Both the position numbers and the translations under genes were made by a program. A stretch of DNA of 64,000 bases from a virus, in the IMG/VR virus record IMGVR_UViG_3300023174_000050, positions 124,001 through 188,000 of that record; one strand, 5' to 3'. Of this stretch, positions 38,308-46,590 are shown one piece after another. Within the stretch, counting starts at the first letter, position 1, and the number at the start of each line of letters is the position of its first letter. The notes below the pieces were generated by a model. That model was given only the letters and a program-made list of their open reading frames with translations, made no database searches and was not told the DNA's origin.

Positions 38308-38381
38308 CCTCTTGTAGCTCAAAGGTAGAGCACTCGCTTGATAAGCGATAGACGTTGGATCGTTACCATCCAAGAGGACCA
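38308..38381 (+). tRNA. tRNA-Ile (GAT)
   Basis: A 7-bp acceptor stem (CCTCTTG/CAAGAGG), discriminator A, encoded CCA and anticodon loop TTGATAA. The T-loop is ATCGTTA instead of TTCGANT, with one mismatch in the T-stem. Confidence 0.9.
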
Positions 38382-38384
38382 TAT

Positions 38385-38460
38385 ATCCCGTTCATCTAGA
38401 GGCCTAGGATACCGCCCTTTCACGGCGAACACACCGGTTCGAATCCGGTACGGGATGCCA
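38385..38460 (+). tRNA. tRNA-Glu (TTC)
   Basis: Acceptor ATCCCGT/ACGGGAT, discriminator G, encoded CCA. Anticodon loop CTTTCAC, normal T-loop (TTCGAAT). Confidence 0.93.
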
Positions 38461-38495
38461 TTATTTTGTGTACAGGCTACAAAATAATGGTTTAT

Positions 38496-38573
38496 GCCTA
38501 GGTGGCAGAGAGGTCAAATGCAACGGATTGCAAATCCGTAAAATCGTCAGTTCGAATCTGACCCTAGGTTCCA
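38496..38573 (+). tRNA. tRNA-Cys (GCA)
   Basis: Acceptor GCCTAGG/CCTAGGT, discriminator T as expected for Cys, encoded CCA, anticodon loop TTGCAAA. Normal T-loop. Confidence 0.92.
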
Positions 38574-38583
38574 AAATTAATGC

Positions 38584-38611
38584 TTGACAAATATTGTAAT
38601 GATGTTATAAT
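38584..38611 (+). promoter_or_regulatory. sigma70-type promoter within tRNA array
   Basis: TTGACA and TATAAT with 16 bp. It drives the possible structured RNA and the following tRNA-Asp. Confidence 0.8.
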
Positions 38612-38819
38612 AGAAACAAGTAAAAAGATCCCGTTACTATTTTCGTTAAAATAGCGTTTGATTAGCGATAGAGATCCGGTGGCAGAAAACCGTTAGCGAG
38701 GTTCCCTCAGACTCTGATAGGCAGAATCCTAACTGCACACAGACGTTAGAATAAACAGGATGGACAGAGTAACTGCTCAATTAAGGGCTGGCCTGGAAAC
38801 CAGTAGCTTATCCTAATAT
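38612..38819 (+). ncRNA. Unassigned structured RNA candidate
   Basis: About 200 bases after a promoter and before tRNA-Asp, with no gene. Pairing is visible: CTATTTT/AAAATAG with a CGTT loop, CGGT/ACCG, a TAGG/CCTA and GCAG/CTGC pair in crossing order (an H-type pseudoknot), and near the end a tRNA-like set (AGGATGG/TTATCCT, GAG/CTC, CTGG/CCAG) that lacks a T-arm and a CCA. TTAGCGA occurs twice. I do not recognise an RNA family. It may be a leader or processing spacer. Confidence 0.4.
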
Positions 38820-38895
38820 GGTCTTAAAGTGTTCATGGACGCACGACGGCTTGTCACGCCGTAAGAGTGGGGATCGTTACCCCCTAAGACCGCCA
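38820..38895 (+). tRNA. tRNA-Asp (GTC)
   Basis: Acceptor GGTCTTA/TAAGACC, discriminator G, encoded CCA, anticodon loop TTGTCAC. Like tRNA-Ile it has T-loop ATCGTTA and one T-stem mismatch. Confidence 0.9.
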
Positions 38896-38901
38896 GTATT
38901 T

Positions 38902-38978
38902 GCCCCGGTGACGGAATTGGTATACGTGTTGGTCTTAGAAGCCAAATTTTGCGAGTTCGAGTCTCGCCTGGGGCACCA
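38902..38978 (+). tRNA. tRNA-Leu (TAG) with short variable loop
   Basis: Acceptor GCCCCGG/CTGGGGC, discriminator A, encoded CCA, anticodon loop CTTAGAA. The D-arm (ACGGAATTGGTATACGT) is Leu-like, but the variable region is only 5 bases (ATTTT) where Leu tRNAs have a long arm. Confidence 0.85.
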
Positions 38979-39018
38979 AATAGGAGTACAAGCTCTTTAT
39001 AAATCTTGTCTTTGTGTG

Positions 39019-39056
39019 GAACCGAACAATGCTACTACTTGTATAAGTATCGGTTC
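39019..39056 (+). other. Hairpin in tRNA spacer
   Basis: GAACCGA and TCGGTTC form a 7-bp stem with a 24-base loop, in the 88-base gap between tRNA-Leu and tRNA-Ala. No promoter or terminator is seen, so it may be a processing signal. Confidence 0.4.
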
Positions 39057-39066
39057 AAAGAATTTC

Positions 39067-39141
39067 GGGGGATTGGCGTAATTGGGAACGCAGTAGCTTT
39101 GCAAGCTTCAGTCAGGAGTTCGAATCTCCTATCCTCCACCA
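39067..39141 (+). tRNA. tRNA-Ala (TGC)
   Basis: Acceptor GGGGGAT/ATCCTCC with the G3-T70 pair required for alanine identity, encoded CCA, anticodon loop TTTGCAA, normal T-loop. Confidence 0.93.
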
Positions 39142-39148
39142 AATTTAT

Positions 39149-39225
39149 CCGTGTGTAGCTCAGCCTGGTAGAGCTCCTGGTTTGGGACCAGGTGGTCGCA
39201 TGTTCGAATCGTGTCACACGGACCA
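39149..39225 (+). tRNA. tRNA-Pro (TGG)
   Basis: Acceptor CCGTGTG/CACACGG, discriminator A, encoded CCA, anticodon loop TTTGGGA in a CCTGG/CCAGG stem. Confidence 0.93.
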
Positions 39226-39232
39226 TGTATAT

Positions 39233-39307
39233 TCCCTTGTAGCTCAGTGGTAGAGTAGATGACTGTTAATCATTTGGTCCGTGGTTCGAGCCCACGCAGG
39301 GGAGCCA
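39233..39307 (+). tRNA. tRNA-Asn (GTT)
   Basis: Acceptor TCCCTTG/CAGGGGA, discriminator G, encoded CCA, anticodon loop CTGTTAA. Confidence 0.93.
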
Positions 39308-39311
39308 AATT

Positions 39312-39396
39312 GGAGGTACGGCGCAGTTGGAGAGGCGCGGCAGACTGTAAATCTGTTCTTTCGGGTGAGTTGGTTCGAATCTAACTACCTCCACCA
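39312..39396 (+). tRNA. tRNA-Tyr (GTA)
   Basis: Acceptor GGAGGTA/TACCTCC, discriminator A, encoded CCA, anticodon GTA, and the long variable arm expected for bacterial Tyr. Confidence 0.93.
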
Positions 39397-39400
39397 AATT

Positions 39401-39475
39401 GCCTGGTTAGCTCAGTGGTAGAGCGTCTCGTTTACACCGAGAGGGTCGGCAGTTCGAAACTGTCACCAGGTACCA
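39401..39475 (+). tRNA. tRNA-Val (TAC)
   Basis: Acceptor GCCTGGT/ACCAGGT, discriminator A, encoded CCA, anticodon loop TTTACAC in a TCTCG/CGAGA stem. Confidence 0.93.
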
Positions 39476-39477
39476 AT

Positions 39478-39551
39478 GCCCTATTAGTATAATGGTATTA
39501 CACCTGTTTTGTAATCAGGCTACGGCAGTTCGATTCTGTCATGGGGCACCA
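39478..39551 (+). tRNA. tRNA-Thr (TGT)
   Basis: Acceptor GCCCTAT/ATGGGGC, discriminator A, encoded CCA, anticodon loop TTTGTAA. One T-T mismatch at the bottom of the anticodon stem. Confidence 0.92.
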
Positions 39552-39556
39552 AATTA

Positions 39557-39631
39557 CTGCCGATAGTTCAACGGATAGAACAGTAGCCTTCTAAGCTATT
39601 AATAGAGGTTCGATTCCTCTTCGGCGGACCA
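39557..39631 (+). tRNA. tRNA-Arg (TCT)
   Basis: Acceptor CTGCCGA/TCGGCGG, discriminator A, encoded CCA, anticodon loop CTTCTAA. Confidence 0.92.
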
Positions 39632-39638
39632 AATCAGT

Positions 39639-39712
39639 TGGGGGTTAGTGTAGCGGCAACACTACAGACTTTGACTCTGTCATCACTGGTTCGATCCCAG
39701 TACCCTCTGCCA
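39639..39712 (+). tRNA. tRNA-Gln (TTG)
   Basis: Acceptor TGGGGGT/ACCCTCT with an unpaired T1-T72, encoded CCA, anticodon loop CTTTGAC. A weak 1-72 pair is typical of Gln. Confidence 0.9.
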
Positions 39713-39715
39713 AAT

Positions 39716-39744
39716 TTGACAAAATTTTAAAAAGATGTTATAAT
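39716..39744 (+). promoter_or_regulatory. sigma70-type promoter within tRNA array
   Basis: TTGACA and TATAAT with 17 bp, right after tRNA-Gln. It precedes the 46-residue basic protein and tRNA-Lys. Confidence 0.78.
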
Positions 39745-39763
39745 AGTGTTTTAGGAGATAAAA

Positions 39764-39904
39764 ATGAAGCACAAGATAATCGTCAGGCAACGTAACCCCT
39801 TCGTTGTTTTGGCATTAAAAAGAAAAGCGGGTAGCCATCGTAAGCCTAACAAAGCATTACGAAGAGCAATGAATGCGGGTATAGCTCAGTCGGTAGAGCA
39901 GTAG
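39764..39904 (+). CDS. Small basic protein overlapping tRNA-Lys
   Basis: A 46-residue protein with its own promoter and AGGAG: MKHKIIVRQRNPFVVLALKR, then KAGSHRKPNKALRRAMNAG. It is strongly basic and probably binds RNA. The last ten codons run into tRNA-Lys. I recall similar RNPFV...HRK...ALRR proteins in phages, function unknown to me. Expression from the strong promoter is plausible, and its message would contain the tRNA. Confidence 0.65.
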   Translation: MKHKIIVRQRNPFVVLALKRKAGSHRKPNKALRRAMNAGIAQSVEQ

Positions 39905-39950
39905 ACTTTTAATCTATTGGTCGTGGGTTCGAATCCCCCTGCCCGTACCA
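39875..39950 (+). tRNA. tRNA-Lys (TTT)
   Basis: Acceptor GCGGGTA/TGCCCGT, discriminator A, encoded CCA, anticodon loop CTTTTAA. The first 30 bases are also coding for the upstream small protein. Confidence 0.93.
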
Positions 39951-40026
39951 TATAAAAACATATTTGACTAAACTCGGGTTCATCCGTGATAGCAAATGCT
40001 ACTATATCAAGTGTGTTTCTATATGG
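39948..40026 (+). repeat. Inverted repeat in tRNA spacer
   Basis: CCATATAAAAACA (39948-39960) and TGTTTCTATATGG (40014-40026) pair with one mismatch around 53 bases that include TAGCAAATGCTA. The left arm starts in the CCA end of tRNA-Lys. A processing hairpin is the likely reading. Confidence 0.5.
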
Positions 40027-40037
40027 TAATATATAAT

Positions 40038-40114
40038 CGGTCCTTAACTCAACTGGATAGAGTGTCAGTCTTCGAAACTGGAAGTTGGGAGTTCGAATCT
40101 CTCAGGACCGGCCA
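40038..40114 (+). tRNA. tRNA-Arg (TCG)
   Basis: Acceptor CGGTCCT/AGGACCG, discriminator G, encoded CCA, anticodon loop CTTCGAA. Confidence 0.9.
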
Positions 40115-40119
40115 CATAT

Positions 40120-40196
40120 GGTGCTTGTCGTCAAGCGGTTAAGACCTCGGGTTGTGATTCCGATATGCGTGGGTTCGAATCCCATCAAGCACCCCA
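40120..40196 (+). tRNA. tRNA-His (GTG)
   Basis: Acceptor GTGCTTG/CAAGCAC with the extra G(-1) facing C73 that marks tRNA-His, encoded CCA, anticodon loop TTGTGAT. Confidence 0.93.
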
Positions 40197-40204
40197 ATTA
40201 ATTT

Positions 40205-40280
40205 GGCGACGTAGCTCATCAGGTAGAGCAGCAGACTGAAAATCTGTGTGTGATTGGTTCGAGTCCAATCGTTGCCACCA
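40205..40280 (+). tRNA. tRNA-Phe (GAA)
   Basis: Acceptor GGCGACG/CGTTGCC, discriminator A, encoded CCA, anticodon GAA. Confidence 0.93.
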
Positions 40281-40291
40281 AGAGGAAATAT

Positions 40292-41062
40292 ATGAAAAAA
40301 TTTTTATTTGTATTACTTTTTTGTTTATGTTATAAAGCATTTGCCGATACTAGCGTAATGGTATATGATATTACAGAAGACAACCATCAATACAATAGTA
40401 ACATTAATAAGACCAGACCAATAGCAAGCATAACTAAGTTAATGACTGTTATGGTAAGTTTAAACAATGATCAAAATTTACTTAAAGAAGTTAGATTGGT
40501 TAACAAAATTAAAAGTAGTTTGCCAATGCAATCATACAAAAGATATGATTTAATTAAAGCAGTATTAGTTAAAAGTGATAATGGTGCAGCAGAAACTATA
40601 GCAGAGGATTATCCAGGTGGAAGGAAAGCATTTATTAAAGCAATGAATGATACTGCCAAAAAAATTGGTATGATGAGTACGCATTTTGATGATCCAACAG
40701 GACTTAGTTCTAAGAATACTTCCACTGCAAGTGAGGTTGCTATCATGGCAAGTTATGCTGCAAATTATTTAATCATTAGAGAAATTAGTATACAAAAACA
40801 AATAGCAATTGAAGCAAAGTTTAAAAAGAAGATACGAACAATAATTTTAAATAATACTAACAAACCTATACTATTTGAATTTGATACTATAATAGTTAGT
40901 AAAACAGGCTTTACCAATCCTGCAGGTTGGTGTAATGTTTTGATTGTAGAAAAGAATAAAAAAAGATATGCGATTGTTGTATTAGGTGCGCCTAATAAAC
41001 AGGCAAGAATAAAAACAGTTGAGAATATGATGTACAATCATATCAACGATAACGAAATTTAG
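40292..41062 (+). CDS. D-alanyl-D-alanine carboxypeptidase/endopeptidase, S11 (PBP7-like)
   Basis: A 256-residue penicillin-binding-type peptidase with a signal peptide (KKFLFVLLFCLCYKAFA). All three active-site motifs are present: SITK (S46, K49), SDN (95-97) and KTG (204-206). S11 enzymes trim D-Ala or cleave peptide cross-links of peptidoglycan in the periplasm. It sits alone in the tRNA array, 11 bases after tRNA-Phe, and its stop codon shares a base with tRNA-Ser. A role in lysis or cell-wall remodelling is inferred. No C-terminal membrane anchor. Confidence 0.88.
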   Translation: MKKFLFVLLFCLCYKAFADTSVMVYDITEDNHQYNSNINKTRPIASITKLMTVMVSLNNDQNLLKEVRLVNKIKSSLPMQSYKRYDLIKAVLVKSDNGAAETIAEDYPGGRKAFIKAMNDTAKKIGMMSTHFDDPTGLSSKNTSTASEVAIMASYAANYLIIREISIQKQIAIEAKFKKKIRTIILNNTNKPILFEFDTIIVSKTGFTNPAGWCNVLIVEKNKKRYAIVVLGAPNKQARIKTVENMMYNHINDNEI

Positions 41063-41153
41063 GAAGATGATGCAGCGGGGTTGGTCCTGCGACTGGCCTT
41101 GAAAACCAGGTTCTCTTAACAGGGATGGGGTTCGACTCCTCCGTCTTCCGCCA
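41062..41153 (+). tRNA. tRNA-Ser (TGA)
   Basis: Acceptor GGAAGAT/GTCTTCC, discriminator G, encoded CCA, anticodon TGA, long variable arm. The first base is the last base of the upstream stop codon. Confidence 0.9.
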
Positions 41154-41164
41154 GAGTCAGATAA

Positions 41165-41250
41165 GGAGAGTGGGCCGGATGGTAAGGCAGCAGTTTGCTA
41201 AACTGTAGACCCGCAAGGGTCAATGGGTTCGACTCCCATACTCTCCGCCA
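41165..41250 (+). tRNA. tRNA-Ser (GCT)
   Basis: Acceptor GGAGAGT/ACTCTCC, discriminator G, encoded CCA, anticodon loop TTGCTAA, long variable arm (GACCC/GGGTC). Confidence 0.93.
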
Positions 41251-41257
41251 AAGTTAT

Positions 41258-41349
41258 GCCAGCGAGACTGGGTAGTCAGAGAGGTCTTATACACCTTTTA
41301 GCGCCAGATTAGCGTTCTTGAGAGAGTTCGAGTCTCTCCGCTGGTACCA
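41258..41349 (+). tRNA. tRNA with TAT anticodon and long variable arm
   Basis: Acceptor GCCAGCG/CGCTGGT, discriminator A, encoded CCA, T-arm GAGAG/CTCTC. The anticodon stem GAGGT/ACCTT encloses CTTATAC, giving anticodon TAT (AUA codons, Ile). The variable region of about 22 bases contains AGCGC/GCGTT. The acceptor and CCA end resemble tRNA-Leu (TAA) at 45010. Charging could be by LeuRS or IleRS and is not decidable from sequence. Confidence 0.75.
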
Positions 41350-41352
41350 TAT

Positions 41353-41427
41353 GGTAGTGTAGCATAACGGTAGTGCAACAGCTTCATACGCTGCAAAGTG
41401 TAAGTTCGATTCTTACCATTACCACCA
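41353..41427 (+). tRNA. tRNA with CAT anticodon (Met or Ile2)
   Basis: Acceptor GGTAGTG/CATTACC, discriminator A, encoded CCA, anticodon loop TTCATAC in a CAGC/GCTG stem. Whether it is elongator Met or lysidine-modified Ile2 cannot be read. Confidence 0.88.
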
Positions 41428-41433
41428 GTTTGA

Positions 41434-41507
41434 TGCGGAATAGAGAAATGGTATCTCGTGAGTCTCATAAGCTCAAGTTCTTGGTTCGACTCCAGGTTCC
41501 GCTACCA
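41434..41507 (+). tRNA. tRNA with CAT anticodon, 1-72 mismatch
   Basis: Acceptor TGCGGAA/TTCCGCT with a T1-T72 mismatch, encoded CCA, anticodon loop CTCATAA. The mismatch is initiator-like, but the three GC pairs of initiator anticodon stems are absent. Confidence 0.85.
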
Positions 41508-42090
41508 ATTGTTTTAATTCGTGAGAAATAGCAATACGTTCTATTAGACCATAACTATAGTCTTTAAGTATTTCTATTTCAAGATCACACACTAGAATAC
41601 GACGAGTAAAATCTGCGTGTTCTCGATCACGTTGTTCCAATTGTTTTTGTACGAATTCAAGTAATAAATTTTTCTTATTGTTATTTACATTTAATCTCGC
41701 AATAACTTTATTTAGATTGTCCTTAAACTTATTGCAAATAGAAATATTATTTGTTGTTTCTGCTTTTATATTTAATACTTGATTTCGCATTTCCTGTATT
41801 AGATCACCTGCCTCGGCATCGAAGTTGGGTATAACAGAGTTTAGCATTTGATTAATATGATCTATAGCATTGTTTCTAATTTGCAGATTTGATTCTGCAT
41901 CGCCAGATATGTCGTAAGATTTTCTTCGAATAGGATCAGATAAAATTTCATACGCTTCTTTTATGCGTTTAAATTTTTCCTCATCCCCGCCCTTATCAGG
42001 ATGATGTATGTTTGCCAAGTGTCTGTATTTGAGTTTTATTTCTTCCTCATCTGCATCAATTGGCAATTCTAGTTCTAGATATGGGTCCAT
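41473..42090 (-). CDS. J-domain protein (DnaJ-like)
   Basis: A 205-residue protein with an N-terminal J domain (about 1-65): the HPDKGG motif follows KYRHLANI, then KRIKEAYEILSDP. The rest (about 66-205) is helical without the Gly/Phe or Cys-rich parts of full DnaJ, so it is a J-domain fusion that would recruit host DnaK. The last 12 codons and stop lie antisense to the CAT tRNA at 41434. A TATAAATA core lies 25 bases before the start on the reverse strand. Confidence 0.85.
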   Translation of the reverse strand: MDPYLELELPIDADEEEIKLKYRHLANIHHPDKGGDEEKFKRIKEAYEILSDPIRRKSYDISGDAESNLQIRNNAIDHINQMLNSVIPNFDAEAGDLIQEMRNQVLNIKAETTNNISICNKFKDNLNKVIARLNVNNNKKNLLLEFVQKQLEQRDREHADFTRRILVCDLEIEILKDYSYGLIERIAISHELKQLVAEPGVEPRT

Positions 42091-42114
42091 AGAGAGATAT
42101 ATATTAGTATCAAT

Positions 42115-42122
42115 TATTTATA
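42115..42122 (-). promoter_or_regulatory. T4-type late promoter on the reverse strand
   Basis: TATAAATA reads on the reverse strand 25 bases before the J-domain gene, which is the spacing seen for the forward late genes. Confidence 0.65.
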
Positions 42123-42133
42123 GGAGTGTGCAA

Positions 42134-42316
42134 ATGAGTGGAAAAGGTTCGGCTCCAAGGCCATTTAGTGTCAGCAACGAAGAATACGAAAAAAGATGGG
42201 ATGCAATTTTTCAAAGAGATATCAGAGAAGTTGAGGATGATTTGAATGAAAAAGAAGAATTTGAAAGAATTCTAAAACATAATGAGAGTAAAGAAAAAAA
42301 TTCCGGTGTAGTATAA
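42134..42316 (+). CDS. Small phage protein MSGKG-type
   Basis: A 60-residue protein starting MSGKGSAPRPFSVSNEEYEK, followed by a charged helix. Similar short MSGKG...PRPF...W proteins occur widely in phages, of unknown function. AGGAG lies 8 bases before the ATG. Its last five codons lie inside tRNA-Trp. Confidence 0.7.
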   Translation: MSGKGSAPRPFSVSNEEYEKRWDAIFQRDIREVEDDLNEKEEFERILKHNESKEKNSGVV

Positions 42317-42375
42317 TGGCAGTGCGGCGGTCTCCAAAACCGTTAGTGGGAGTTCGATTCTCTCCACCGGAGCCA
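42302..42375 (+). tRNA. tRNA-Trp (CCA)
   Basis: Acceptor TCCGGTG/CACCGGA, discriminator G, encoded CCA, anticodon loop CTCCAAA. The first 15 bases are also the end of the upstream gene. Confidence 0.92.
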
Positions 42376-42386
42376 AGATGAAAAAT

Positions 42387-42460
42387 GCGGGATTGGTTTA
42401 ATGGTAAAACGAAACCTTGCCAAGGTTTAGTCACCAGTTCGATTCTGGTATCCCGCTCCA
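42387..42460 (+). tRNA. tRNA-Gly (GCC)
   Basis: Acceptor GCGGGAT/ATCCCGC, discriminator T, encoded CCA, anticodon loop TTGCCAA. Confidence 0.93.
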
Positions 42461-42473
42461 ACAAAGGTGCACT

Positions 42474-42956
42474 ATGAAAAAATTAGACATGAATGAAGTT
42501 ACTGCTTTTATCGAAGCGCAAAGTCCAGAGACCAAAATATACATTGGAGCGGATTCCGAACGATATAGAAGAAACGATAAATGGTACGCCGACTATACTC
42601 TTGCTATTGTAGTCCACATCGATGGACGCCATGGTTGTAAAATCTTTGGTGAAGTTCAAACCGAAATTGATTATGATGCAAAAAATAGCAGACCTTCCAT
42701 GCGTCTAATGAATGAAGTATATAAAGTTGCAGAACTATATCACAAACTTATAGATGCAGATGTAATTGGTGAAAAAGAAGTTCAAATTCATCTTGACATT
42801 AATCCCAAAGAATGTTATAATAGCTCTATAGTGATTCAACAAGCAGTTGGTTATATTAAAGGGACCTGTAATGTGGTACCGATGGTTAAGCCAAATGCTT
42901 TTGCAGCTAGTTATGCTGCCGATAGACTGAAAGAGGTCATGGCAATGGCGGCATAA
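42474..42956 (+). CDS. RNase H-fold protein, YkuK/DUF458-like
   Basis: A 160-residue protein with IYIGADSERY and YTLAIVVHIDGRHG, the start of the RNase H-like fold of DUF458 proteins, and a later Asp-rich IHLDINPK and a C-terminal KPNAFAASYAADRL segment. It may act on RNA or DNA. ATG 42474 has AAAGGTG upstream. The end of the gene holds the promoter for the tmRNA. Confidence 0.75.
   Translation: MKKLDMNEVTAFIEAQSPETKIYIGADSERYRRNDKWYADYTLAIVVHIDGRHGCKIFGEVQTEIDYDAKNSRPSMRLMNEVYKVAELYHKLIDADVIGEKEVQIHLDINPKECYNSSIVIQQAVGYIKGTCNVVPMVKPNAFAASYAADRLKEVMAMAA
42793..42821 (+). promoter_or_regulatory. sigma70-type promoter inside the RNase H-fold gene
   Basis: TTGACA and TATAAT with 17 bp, within the coding sequence and about 160 bases before the tmRNA acceptor piece. 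No other promoter lies nearer, so it is the likely driver of the tmRNA. Confidence 0.65.
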
Positions 42957-42979
42957 ATAATTTTATTGTTGTATGAAGC

Positions 42980-43028
42980 GAAGAGAAATGTGTTCTGGAC
43001 GGGGGTGCAAATCCCCCCAGGTCCACCA
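42980..43028 (+). ncRNA. ssrA: tmRNA acceptor piece
   Basis: The T-arm GGGGG/CCCCC with loop TGCAAAT is followed by the acceptor strand CAGGTCC, discriminator A and an encoded CCA at 43026-43028. Upstream is the part that pairs with the coding piece. The 5' end is estimated. Confidence 0.85.
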
Positions 43029-43114
43029 TAAACATACTAGCCTTTGGGTGTAGTCCGTAAGGATCAAGAGATAATTTCAAAGACCCCATATAACCAAGTT
43101 AGTATGTTTTTGAT

Positions 43115-43284
43115 GGGCCTGCATAGTTTCGACAGGGCAAATAGTAACGGAGTGGACAGCACATCAGAGTAGATGTTAAAACTAAAACAACGTAAACGCA
43201 AACGACGAAATGTTCGCATTAGCAGCCTAAACACTGCTTAGGGTTTCGGTAGGTTTCCTCGTAACAGAATAACCTACCTTTTTA
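43115..43284 (+). ncRNA. ssrA: tmRNA coding piece with tag
   Basis: It starts GGGCCTGCATAGTTTCGACA, the conserved D-like end. The resume codon GCA at 43198 opens the tag reading frame (10 codons, stop at 43228-43230). A perfect 8-bp hairpin GGTAGGTT/AACCTACC (43248-43278) and five Ts follow, a likely terminator and 3' boundary. Confidence 0.88.
43248..43283 (+). terminator. Terminator at the tmRNA coding-piece end
   Basis: An 8-bp stem (GGTAGGTT/AACCTACC) with a 15-base loop and TTTTT. It may also be part of the mature RNA. Confidence 0.7.
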
Positions 43285-43302
43285 AATTTAAAAAGGAGTT
43301 TT

Positions 43303-43866
43303 ATGAAAAAAACAGTATTAGCACTTGCGCTTTTGGCAAGTTTAACAGTCTTTGCTAGCGATAATGTAGCAGTAGACTATTCAGTTAAGAAAAAAGTTGA
43401 TTCAACACAACACAATGATGTATATGGATTAACCGTTGGTCATAAATTAGACAACGGCATTACTTCAGAAATTCGTTTTGAAAATGAAACAACTAACACT
43501 GGCAAACAAGAAGGTTTAATGCAAGTTAAAGGCATTTATGATTTGACCGGTGTGGCAGGTGTTACACCATATGTTGCAGCAGCAGTTGGTCATAAAATGA
43601 AAGCAACTGAGAATTTTGAATTCTATGTTGCGGAGGTTGGCGCAAAAACAAATTTAGGTCCTGTAGGATTAAAATTTGCATCTCGTATTCGCTCACCCTT
43701 TGATGAAGGACATATTGGTGCAGGTAGTAAATATCGTACATATGAAAATAGTTTGACTGCAGGTTATAAGTTAAACAAACTTGATACTATCAGTGTCAAA
43801 TATGCAAATGAAAAAGGTGATAGTAACTATCATACAACAGGCGTATCCTTTAGTCACGCATTTTAA
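43303..43866 (+). CDS. Outer-membrane beta-barrel protein
   Basis: A 187-residue protein with a signal peptide (KKTVLALALLASLTVFAS) and eight or so alternating amphipathic strands (for example GLTVGHKLDNGITSEIRFE), ending in a terminal Phe (GVSFSHAF), as required for insertion by the BAM machinery. It resembles small porin- or OmpA-type barrels. A phage-encoded barrel could alter the host surface, as in lambda Lom-type proteins. AAGGAG precedes the ATG, 20 bases after the tmRNA terminator. Confidence 0.78.
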   Translation: MKKTVLALALLASLTVFASDNVAVDYSVKKKVDSTQHNDVYGLTVGHKLDNGITSEIRFENETTNTGKQEGLMQVKGIYDLTGVAGVTPYVAAAVGHKMKATENFEFYVAEVGAKTNLGPVGLKFASRIRSPFDEGHIGAGSKYRTYENSLTAGYKLNKLDTISVKYANEKGDSNYHTTGVSFSHAF

Positions 43867-43871
43867 TTAAC

Positions 43872-43945
43872 GCGAGTTTAGTTTAATGGTAGAATTAGAG
43901 CCTTCCAAGCTCAAGGCACGGGTTCGATTCCCGTAGCTCGCTCCA
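43872..43945 (+). tRNA. tRNA-Gly (TCC)
   Basis: Acceptor GCGAGTT/AGCTCGC, discriminator T, encoded CCA, anticodon loop CTTCCAA, normal T-arm. Confidence 0.93.
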
Positions 43946-44065
43946 AACTTCCAGACCTGTAAATTGCTTACAAAGCACTCTGGATCCGCTGACGCGAAAA
44001 CAGGATGGGCTGCGCTCACGGGGTTTACTGGTTTCCTGACACAAAAATAACCAGTCCTACCCTGC
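43946..44065 (+). other. Spacer with hairpin
   Basis: A 120-base gap with a 7-bp hairpin ACTGGTT/AACCAGT (44027-44033 and 44049-44055) but no T-run, followed at once by a promoter. I see no gene in it. Confidence 0.4.
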
Positions 44066-44094
44066 TTGACAGGGTTTCTTTTTGGTGTTATAAT
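44066..44094 (+). promoter_or_regulatory. sigma70-type promoter
   Basis: TTGACA and TATAAT with 17 bp, in the GCTTGACAGGG...TTGGTGTTATAATA context of this phage. It precedes the phosphoesterase gene. Confidence 0.8.
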
Positions 44095-44114
44095 ATAGGC
44101 ATAGGAGAGATCAA

Positions 44115-44702
44115 ATGCCAGCAGTATTTTTAGTTAGTGATACACATTTCGGTCATGCAGGGGTGTGTCGTTTCATGCGTAACGACGGTATTACTAAACT
44201 TCGTCCATGGGATAATCCAGAAGAAATGGATGAAGAAATGGTCAAGCGCTGGAATGAAATTGTCAGACCAAATGACAAAGTTTATCATCTTGGTGATGTT
44301 GTTATTAACCGCAAGGCTTTAAAAACACTTGAGCGTTTGAACGGTGATAAGGTATTGATTCGTGGTAACCATGATATCTTTCGAGATGATGAATATAGAC
44401 AATACTTCCGAGAGCTTCGTGCATATCATGTGATGAACGGAATGATTCTGTCGCATATTCCTATTCATTCAGAATCTCTAGCTAGATTTGGTACCAACAT
44501 TCATGGACATCTTCATGCCAATCGAGTAATGATCCGAGACTTTTTTAGCGACGCACTAGAGATTGATACTAGATACCATTGCGTATGTGTTGAACAAACC
44601 GACTTTAGGCCTATTCTTTTTGAGGATGTTATCAAACGAATTACAGAAGAAGGTGGTACTGTAGGTTTTAAAAATGGCAACGGTTCACAATGCGCAGATT
44701 AG
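44115..44702 (+). CDS. Calcineurin-like metallophosphoesterase
   Basis: A 195-residue enzyme with the metal-binding motifs in order: SDTHFGH (near residue 8), HLGDVV, IRGNHD, a later LSHIPIH and GHLH. This is the usual set for small phosphoesterases acting on nucleotides or nucleic acids. Its substrate is unknown. It overlaps the next gene by 13 bases. Confidence 0.88.
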   Translation: MPAVFLVSDTHFGHAGVCRFMRNDGITKLRPWDNPEEMDEEMVKRWNEIVRPNDKVYHLGDVVINRKALKTLERLNGDKVLIRGNHDIFRDDEYRQYFRELRAYHVMNGMILSHIPIHSESLARFGTNIHGHLHANRVMIRDFFSDALEIDTRYHCVCVEQTDFRPILFEDVIKRITEEGGTVGFKNGNGSQCAD

Positions 44703-44968
44703 AAAATGAATCCTATAATGCATGGGTAGAGCGTGTTCGTTTATTTGAACATGGATACGCTCTACAACGTGTTGCCAAGGGCGAAGATTCGGAAACAATA
44801 ATTGAAGAAATGAGTATTCGCATGATAGATAAACTTATGAATCCTGTTTACAAAATCATACGTGATACTGGTCGCAAAACTTTTAATGTTGAAAAATCAA
44901 GAAAAGATTACTATGATAAATATCTTAGCAAGCATAAAACAAAACCAGATCATGTTTTGGATGACTAA
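44690..44968 (+). CDS. Conserved phage protein, unknown
   Basis: A 92-residue, mostly helical protein starting inside the phosphoesterase gene: ESYNAWVERVRLFEHGYALQ. It has no membrane or zinc motif. The overlap suggests coupled translation. I recall similar proteins beside phosphoesterase genes but cannot name a function. Confidence 0.65.
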   Translation: MRRLENESYNAWVERVRLFEHGYALQRVAKGEDSETIIEEMSIRMIDKLMNPVYKIIRDTGRKTFNVEKSRKDYYDKYLSKHKTKPDHVLDD

Positions 44969-44970
44969 AG

Positions 44971-44999
44971 GTTGACAGAATATTGAAAAGATTATATAA
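44971..44999 (+). promoter_or_regulatory. sigma70-type promoter for tRNA-Leu
   Basis: TTGACA and TATAAT with 17 bp, 11 bases before tRNA-Leu (TAA), so the transcript begins almost at the tRNA. Confidence 0.78.
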
Positions 45000-45009
45000 T
45001 ATTATTTGA

Positions 45010-45095
45010 GCCAGAGTGGTGGAATGGTATACACAGCAGACTTAAAATCTGCCGCTCGCAAGGGCATACGGGTTCGAGTCCCGTCTCTGGTACCA
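45010..45095 (+). tRNA. tRNA-Leu (TAA)
   Basis: Acceptor GCCAGAG/CTCTGGT, discriminator A, encoded CCA, anticodon loop CTTAAAA, long variable arm. This is a normal class II Leu tRNA, unlike the TAG one. Confidence 0.93.
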
Positions 45096-45113
45096 AGATA
45101 ACTAAGGAACAAA

Positions 45114-45359
45114 ATGATTGATTATGTTATAACATTTTTTGCAGTATTTGTTACAGACATCCTATATACTTTTTATTTAAAATCAGTACAACATAATAGC
45201 CCTTTAAAAGCTAGTTTTTGGGCTACTGTAGTTACAGCGACCGCAAGTATTGCAGTAATTAATTATACAGAAAATCATTTGATGTTGATCCCAGCTTTGA
45301 TAGGTGCCTTTGCTGGGACATGGTTTGGAATGAAATTTAAAAAGAAGGAGTTGGAATGA
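45114..45359 (+). CDS. Small multi-pass membrane protein
   Basis: An 81-residue protein with two or three membrane helices (about residues 4-22, 31-50, 55-75), ending in a Lys-rich tail (KFKKKELE). It overlaps the rubrerythrin gene by 4 bases, which may mean a shared function. No family recognised. Confidence 0.65.
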   Translation: MIDYVITFFAVFVTDILYTFYLKSVQHNSPLKASFWATVVTATASIAVINYTENHLMLIPALIGAFAGTWFGMKFKKKELE

Positions 45360-45805
45360 GTATTACAATAAAAAATTTAGAAGATGCGCTGGCAGGCGAG
45401 AGCCAAGCACATATCAAATATCGTTATTTCGCAAAGATTGCCCGTGAAGAAGGTCATGAAGAAGTTGCACAACACTTCGAACATACTGCAGATCAAGAGT
45501 TGCTTCATGCCTGGGGTCATCTAGAATTGCTAATCGGCAAGCCTAGTACAAAAGAATGTCTACAAAAAGCTATTGATGGCGAGACATATGAGTTTACACA
45601 AATGTATCCTACAATGAAAAGGCAAGCTGAATTAGAAAATAATCAAGAAGCAGTTCGTGAAGCAGCCCATCAAATTGCAGAATCACAAACTCACGCTGAA
45701 GAATTTCGTGCAGTTCTTGCTAAAGCAGAAAAGCGTTTCTCGGCTTTAACTAAAATCGAAAAGCGTCACGCCGCAGCTTATCAACAAGTATTGGAGACAT
45801 TATAA
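45356..45805 (+). CDS. Rubrerythrin (ferritin-like diiron domain)
   Basis: A 149-residue ferritin-like protein with the two ExxH motifs of the diiron site: LAGESQAHIKYRYFA, then HTADQELLHAWGHLE, followed later by AESQTHAEEFRAVL. It lacks the C-terminal rubredoxin domain of full rubrerythrin. A separate rubredoxin gene starts on the last base of its stop, so the pair probably forms the complete peroxide reductase. It can protect phage or host from oxidative stress. Confidence 0.9.
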   Translation: MSITIKNLEDALAGESQAHIKYRYFAKIAREEGHEEVAQHFEHTADQELLHAWGHLELLIGKPSTKECLQKAIDGETYEFTQMYPTMKRQAELENNQEAVREAAHQIAESQTHAEEFRAVLAKAEKRFSALTKIEKRHAAAYQQVLETL

Positions 45806-45933
45806 TGGAACACGTATGCGTAGTTTGTGGCCATGTCCACGATGAAGAAATAGAAGGCAAATGGGAATCTCTTCCAGAAGATTTTCTATGCCCCGAATGC
45901 GGTTGCGGAAAAGAAGATTACGAAGCAATATAA
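45805..45933 (+). CDS. Rubredoxin-like protein
   Basis: A 42-residue protein: CVVC near the start, then SLPEDFLCPECGCGK. The two Cys pairs (CxxC and CPxC) and the PEDFLCPECG pattern match rubredoxin, with a shortened middle. The ATG uses the last base of the rubrerythrin stop. It would pass electrons to rubrerythrin. Confidence 0.85.
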   Translation: MEHVCVVCGHVHDEEIEGKWESLPEDFLCPECGCGKEDYEAI

Positions 45934-45940
45934 CTAACAC

Positions 45941-45980
45941 GCGCTTGTAGCTCAGTTGGTTAGAGCAGTGGACTCCTTAA
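45941..45980 (+). pseudogene. Truncated tRNA, 5' half with CCT anticodon
   Basis: A tRNA 5' part: acceptor GCGCTTG, TAGCTCAGTTGGTTAGAGC D-arm, and the anticodon stem GTGGA with CTCCT. The sequence then changes to an A/T-rich region and the homing endonuclease gene. No matching 3' half was found downstream. It probably was a tRNA-Arg (CCT). Confidence 0.75.
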
Positions 45981-46010
45981 AATTTATTTTTTATAAATAT
46001 AAAAAGGAGT
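45972..46010 (+). promoter_or_regulatory. RBS-masking hairpin with late promoter in the loop
   Basis: ACTCCTT of the tRNA remnant (45972-45978) is complementary to AAGGAGT (46004-46010), the ribosome-binding site of the homing endonuclease. TATAAATA (45992-45999) lies in the loop. In long upstream transcripts the site would be masked; transcripts from the late promoter would lack the left arm. This copies the known logic of T4 I-TevI, but whether the short late RNA keeps the whole ribosome-binding site depends on its exact start. Confidence 0.55.
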
Positions 46011-46014
46011 AAAT

Positions 46015-46530
46015 ATGCCTAACCAATGGACTAAAGCTAAAGAAACAGGAATACCCTACATTATTAAGGATTCTACTAGAAAAAAACTTAGCAATGCTGC
46101 AACAGAAAAAAATCTAAAATATTTTTCATCTAAAGAAAATAGAGATAAGCATTCTGATGCTATGAAATTAGCAGTAGAAAAATTTCCAAATTCGTATACA
46201 TCTTCTAACAGAGGAAGAACCAAGCAAATAGTATATGATGGTATAAAATTTCAAGGTAGGTGGGAATTAGATTTTTATAAATGGTGCATTTCTGAGAATA
46301 TACAAATTAAAAGATGTGAAGAATTTTTTGAATATAAATGGAATGGTATAAGAAAATATTTTCCAGATTTCTTTTTGCCTGAGCAAAATTTGTATGTAGA
46401 AATAAAAGGGTATGAAACTGAAAGAGATCAAGCTAAATGGTCTCAGTTTCCAAAAAAATTATTTGTGGTTAAACGAAAAGAAATATTACAAATAAAAAAA
46501 GGTAATTTTAATAAAGCGACTCTAGCATAG
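46015..46530 (+). CDS. PD-(D/E)XK-type homing endonuclease with NUMOD-like N-terminus
   Basis: A 171-residue protein. The C-terminal half has the nuclease motif P117-D118, E129-x-K131 (FPDFFLPEQ, then VEIKGY), as in PD-(D/E)XK homing enzymes found in tRNA genes. The N-terminal half (TRKKLSNAATEKNLKYFSS) resembles NUMOD DNA-binding modules. It follows a truncated tRNA and ends inside tRNA-Met, so it is a free-standing mobile gene inserted in the array. Target choice is unknown. Confidence 0.75.
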   Translation: MPNQWTKAKETGIPYIIKDSTRKKLSNAATEKNLKYFSSKENRDKHSDAMKLAVEKFPNSYTSSNRGRTKQIVYDGIKFQGRWELDFYKWCISENIQIKRCEEFFEYKWNGIRKYFPDFFLPEQNLYVEIKGYETERDQAKWSQFPKKLFVVKRKEILQIKKGNFNKATLA

Positions 46531-46590
46531 CGGTAGTGCCGAGAACTCATAATTCTTACGGGACTGGTTCGAATCCAGTGGGTCGCACCA
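46516..46590 (+). tRNA. tRNA with CAT anticodon (Met or Ile2)
   Basis: Acceptor GCGACTC/GGGTCGC, discriminator A, encoded CCA, anticodon loop CTCATAA in a GAGAA/TTCTT stem. The first 15 bases are the end of the homing endonuclease gene. Confidence 0.9.

Follow-up and report, generated by a model that had tools for sequence, protein, structure and literature searches.

The 64,000-nt window analysed here (bases 124001-188000 of a 190,131-base virus record) contains a locus that, judged from its sequence, is an intact circularly permuted two-piece tmRNA gene of the betaproteobacterial type. tmRNA rescues stalled ribosomes and tags their incomplete proteins for degradation, and the locus very probably encodes a functional phage version that would be processed and charged by the host and used in rescue and tagging. 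It adds a well-supported case to the little-studied phage tmRNAs, one in which selection keeps both the structure and the tag.

Anatomy of the permuted gene

Two Rfam covariance models matched the locus above their cut-offs: RF04321 tmRNA_permuted (42967-43230, 120.1 bits, cut-off 47, E=7.1e-23) and RF01850 beta_tmRNA (42914-43284, 116.3 bits, cut-off 84). ARAGORN independently called a permuted tmRNA with the tag ANDEMFALAA. The acceptor piece reads 5' of the coding piece, and a seven-pair acceptor stem with G3-U70, the T-arm and the CCA position are all present, as are the Ala resume codon, the hydrophobic C-terminus and the stop of the tag frame. The fold energy is modestly below that of shuffled sequence (z=-2.14). 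The features of the locus are:

42793-42821, + strand: sigma-70-type consensus promoter TTGACA-17-TATAAT, 12/12, inside the upstream gene
42967-43028, + strand: acceptor piece, from the RF04321 and RF01850 alignments and pair counts in 86 relatives; 5' end predicted
43001-43017, + strand: T-stem (43001-43005/43013-43017) and T-loop UGCAAAU with G55 at 43007, from sequence and pairing in relatives
43018-43028, + strand: 3' acceptor strand CAGGTCC, discriminator A and CCA, from sequence
43029-43114, + strand: intervening segment, 86 nt, from sequence; predicted to be removed from the precursor
43115-43284, + strand: coding piece, with the 5' acceptor strand, D-loop, tag frame, pseudoknot and terminal hairpin; 3' end predicted
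43198-43230, + strand: tag reading frame GCA...TAA (ANDEMFALAA, resume codon GCA), from ARAGORN and synonymous variation
43221-43242, + strand: H-type pseudoknot over the stop codon (AGCAG/CTGCT and CCTA/TAGG), from sequence and pairing in relatives
43248-43278, + strand: terminal 8-bp hairpin of the coding piece, from sequence and pairing in relatives

The acceptor piece is placed as starting at ~42967 because the coding piece contains ACAGCA (43156-43161), the pairing partner of TGTTGT at 42967-42972. Its 3' end is an encoded CCA (43026-43028), and its predicted mature length ~62 nt. Its CAGGTCC strand pairs with GGGCCTG (43115-43121) at 7/7 positions; one of these pairs is G3-U70, the alanyl-tRNA synthetase identity element. 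A 10-bp inverted repeat (43030-43039/43100-43109, AAACATACTA/TAGTATGTTT) closes the intervening segment. A sequence-only reading of this DNA had described a permuted two-piece tmRNA in a phage, with fully paired ends, an 86-base intervening segment bounded by a 10-bp repeat and an intact tag, and had proposed a check against the Rfam permuted-tmRNA families; the two models, the ARAGORN call and the pairing above all agree with that description. Its start at 42980 was set too far 3' and its 49-base acceptor piece was too short, as the piece appears to extend ~13 nt further upstream.

Many of the listed viral relatives carry a near-perfect promoter that begins ~38 nt before the acceptor piece, with the expected transcription start at the 5' end of that piece, and a 12/12 promoter is found in 31 of 114 relatives vs 0/114 shuffled sequences. 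In the window, no promoter abuts the acceptor piece in this way: the best one lies ~145 nt upstream, in a gene, and this element (42793-42821) is likely the promoter of the tmRNA precursor. Exact TTGACA-17-TATAAT promoters occur nine times in the window, all on the + strand (starts 3861, 26383, 34009, 38125, 39716, 42793, 44066, 44972 and 47445), six of them ending GTTATAAT, and matches with at most two mismatches number 39, against 20.7 expected. The nine exact copies are probably phage early promoters.

Viral relatives, selection and the tRNA elbow

Pattern searches of IMG/VR found the permuted acceptor piece in at least 120 stretches and a coding piece matching that of the window in at least 119 viral contigs; the ANDEMFALAA tag sequence was found in 9 viral stretches. 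The same coding-piece pattern was present in 0/84,980 bacterial and archaeal species genomes and the tag in 0/84,980 such genomes of GTDB, zeros which hold for those exact patterns only, as these may overlook diverged copies. Among the plasmid-borne bacterial copies searched, the closest coding piece, ~78% identical, is that of Cupriavidus. The tag had earlier been read as a hint to the host: the tmRNA is indeed betaproteobacterial in type, but the tag, being absent from the GTDB species genomes, does not single out one host.

Phage two-piece tmRNA genes are already known and are common in lake and sea phages. In a published survey of 18,146 phage genomes, 402 had a tmRNA and 53 two-piece structures were counted, 50 of them in marine or aquatic samples (PMC9004378), and the study that defined the RF04321 model lists 79 phage tmRNA sequences (PMC11915505). 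A phage copy is therefore not rare, contrary to the earlier reading, which had called a phage copy with an encoded CCA unusual; CCA is encoded in 161 of 164 viral copies among the matches listed and is the norm in phage two-piece tmRNAs.

Two further observations concern other viral contigs. Xanthomonas tmRNA is one-piece, and Xanthomonas phage X1 (L242, 672-1000) contains a permuted tmRNA that scores 76.6 bits and is without annotation. In six contigs (L056, L058, L073, L035, L025 and L071) ARAGORN gave tags of ~24-31 residues, such as ANADTFDFSAMSFTGNTV...ALAA; these long tags may be genuine or may stem from misread start points.

The listed loci yielded 128 distinct mature sequences, and the 86 of the window's elbow type were used for pair counts. 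The predicted acceptor stem, T-stem, inter-piece helices and stop-codon pseudoknot covary in these 86 viral relatives: the acceptor stem is paired in 602/602 cells, with full swaps (G-C/C-G/A-U/U-A) at two pairs and an invariant G3-U70, and the corresponding counts are 430/430 for the T-stem, 504/516 for P2, 479/515 for the outer inter-piece helix, and 315/336 (S2) and 329/421 (S1) for the pseudoknot. The terminal hairpin is paired in 456/584 cells; conservation is poor in the coding piece's upstream hairpin (163/344). Among the listed relatives, the intervening segment ranges in length from 20 to 415 nt, its closing helix is kept with changing sequence in most, mostly as 8-13 pairs, and TGAT usually ends the segment, before the RNase P site. 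Variation in the tag is mainly synonymous, at third positions, with residues 1-3, 6 and 8-10 nearly fixed. These patterns indicate that the RNA is maintained by selection on structure and tag, and it probably works, because the helices covary, the closing helix persists and the changes in the tag are mainly silent.

In the window, the predicted tRNA elbow has A18-G55 with a shortened D-loop instead of G18-U55 (D-loop 43125-43126, T-loop 43007-43008). The viral matches listed show two combinations: G55 with a 5-base D segment containing AG (117 viral loci), and U55 with a GG-containing D segment that is 5-7 bases long, almost always 6 (43 viral loci); the mixed form A18-U55 does not occur among them. 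Loci fetched irrespective of D-loop comprised 26 AG/G55 and 38 GG/U55, with three SAR11-like exceptions that have TAGG or CAGG. A tree of 129 sequences required at least 12 state changes, on well-supported branches, a count which recombination could inflate and whose reliability is limited by the ~208 columns available.

We considered A18-G55 as a phage-only trait and rejected this, since the Rfam alpha_tmRNA consensus has G55 with AG in the D-loop: the alpha consensus is AG/G55 and the beta consensus GG/U55. Both elbow states are known from bacterial families; what may be new is only that phages switch between them repeatedly. Aquatic phages might harbour a separate, long-lasting lineage of beta-type two-piece tmRNA, in which the elbow switches as a unit between A18-G55 and G18-U55 and whose tags and coding pieces pattern searches did not find in bacterial genomes; we hold this tentatively, at clearly less than even likelihood. 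The many viral sequences in any case offer ready material for studying the tRNA-elbow contact and the processing of two-piece precursors.

Phage context and proposed use of the RNA

The proteins encoded in the window are T4-like, and include UvsX, a DnaB-like helicase, DNA polymerase, a porphyrin-biosynthesis-type ATPase and tail fibres. The record encodes gp23 elsewhere; the closest named gp23 proteins are those of Methylophilales phage Melnitz (64.5%), Pelagibacter phages (63.6%) and Synechococcus phages (61.8%). The gene psbA, sought as a sign of a cyanophage, is absent. From gp23 and the tmRNA type, the likeliest guess at the host is a betaproteobacterium such as a Methylophilales, a guess that falls only a little short of an even chance.

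ARAGORN found 26 tRNA genes at 38308-46590, a set with at least one gene for each of the 20 standard amino acids. The tmRNA lies within this cluster, flanked by genes for an RNase H-like protein (PF04308) and an unnamed secreted-looking protein. The latter (43303-43866, directly 3' of the tmRNA) has 187 aa, a signal-peptide-like start and repeated strand-like segments; it is without a Pfam or PHROG match and looks like an outer-membrane barrel. Within the tRNA cluster, a gene for a DnaJ-domain protein lies on the opposite strand (41473-42090, - strand), and the tRNA at 41258-41349 has a long class II variable arm and the anticodon UAU; ARAGORN calls it tRNA-Ile, and it scores below the cut-off with the Rfam tRNA model.

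Neither SmpB nor SspB is encoded in the 190-kb record, and SmpB was also absent from 18 other large viral records with a permuted tmRNA. Host SmpB, alanyl-tRNA synthetase, RNase P and protease would therefore be needed. The earlier suggestion that the phage supplies its own ribosome rescue and tagging is plausible as a role for this RNA, but does not extend to the whole system.

We envisage that host RNA polymerase transcribes the precursor, probably from the promoter at 42793-42821, and that the acceptor stem and the intervening-segment helix fold as a single long hairpin. RNase P would cleave before G43115, and host nucleases would remove what follows the encoded CCA. The resulting acceptor piece (~42967-43028) and coding piece (43115-~43284) would stay joined by base pairs. 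Host alanyl-tRNA synthetase would charge the RNA via G3-U70 and host SmpB would bring it to ribosomes halted by a broken mRNA. There, ANDEMFALAA would be appended to the unfinished product, which host proteases would degrade. The phage probably gains by keeping tmRNA steadily available throughout the destruction of host RNA, and the likeliest benefit is that ribosomes are kept free during this degradation; maintenance of the hijacked machinery is among the roles proposed for the tmRNA of Melnitz (PMC9004378).

The RNA could instead compete with host tmRNA for SmpB and alter or blunt host quality control, as a decoy or by re-tagging. Without a phage SmpB, that of the host must be competed for; the tag is found in none of the species genomes searched; and in phage DS6A a tRNA-like-only form of tmRNA has been reported as a tmRNA inhibitor (PMC4131195, PMC11915505). 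We nevertheless consider this improbable, as a pure decoy could do without the tag frame, stop codon and pseudoknot, all of which are intact here and under selection. Still harder to credit, to the point of being negligible, is that the gene was picked up from a bacterial host, for instance through imprecise excision or by serving as an integration site, and is carried without function in the phage. The occurrence of the coding-piece motif in viral contigs and in none of the species genomes speaks against such a capture, as do the covariation and tag selection, which imply long maintenance in viruses, and the gene families scanned, which are those of a lytic T4-like phage. It is true that tmRNA genes serve as integration sites, that betaproteobacterial permuted tmRNAs exist and that the coding piece resembles the Cupriavidus copies. 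With a phage tmRNA gene that selection maintains, any benefit to the phage of a tmRNA supply during infection becomes directly testable.

Relation to known permuted tmRNAs

The best DNA match in a named phage is the permuted tmRNA of Synechococcus phage BUCT-ZZ01 (72.5% over 1/3 of the query), which is without annotation in its record and differs in its tag, ANDETFSMALAA, and its GG/UUC elbow. Melnitz and Pelagibacter phage Mosig (PMC9004378) likewise have a permuted ssrA in a T4-like Kyanoviridae phage, and Melnitz has the closest major capsid protein among named phages. Their copies are described as alphaproteobacterial in type, whereas the present gene is of the beta type, and the Melnitz copy as under a glutamine riboswitch (PMC9004378), whereas a riboswitch search of 42400-43950 gave no match at E<=1. 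The betaproteobacterial tmRNAs of RF01850 (Cupriavidus and others; 116 bits) share the gene order, the inter-piece helices and the AND...ALAA form of the tag. Compared with these, the present gene has a longer intervening segment (86 nt), a shortened 3' domain and a D-loop that is one base shorter, with A18-G55 replacing G18-U55.
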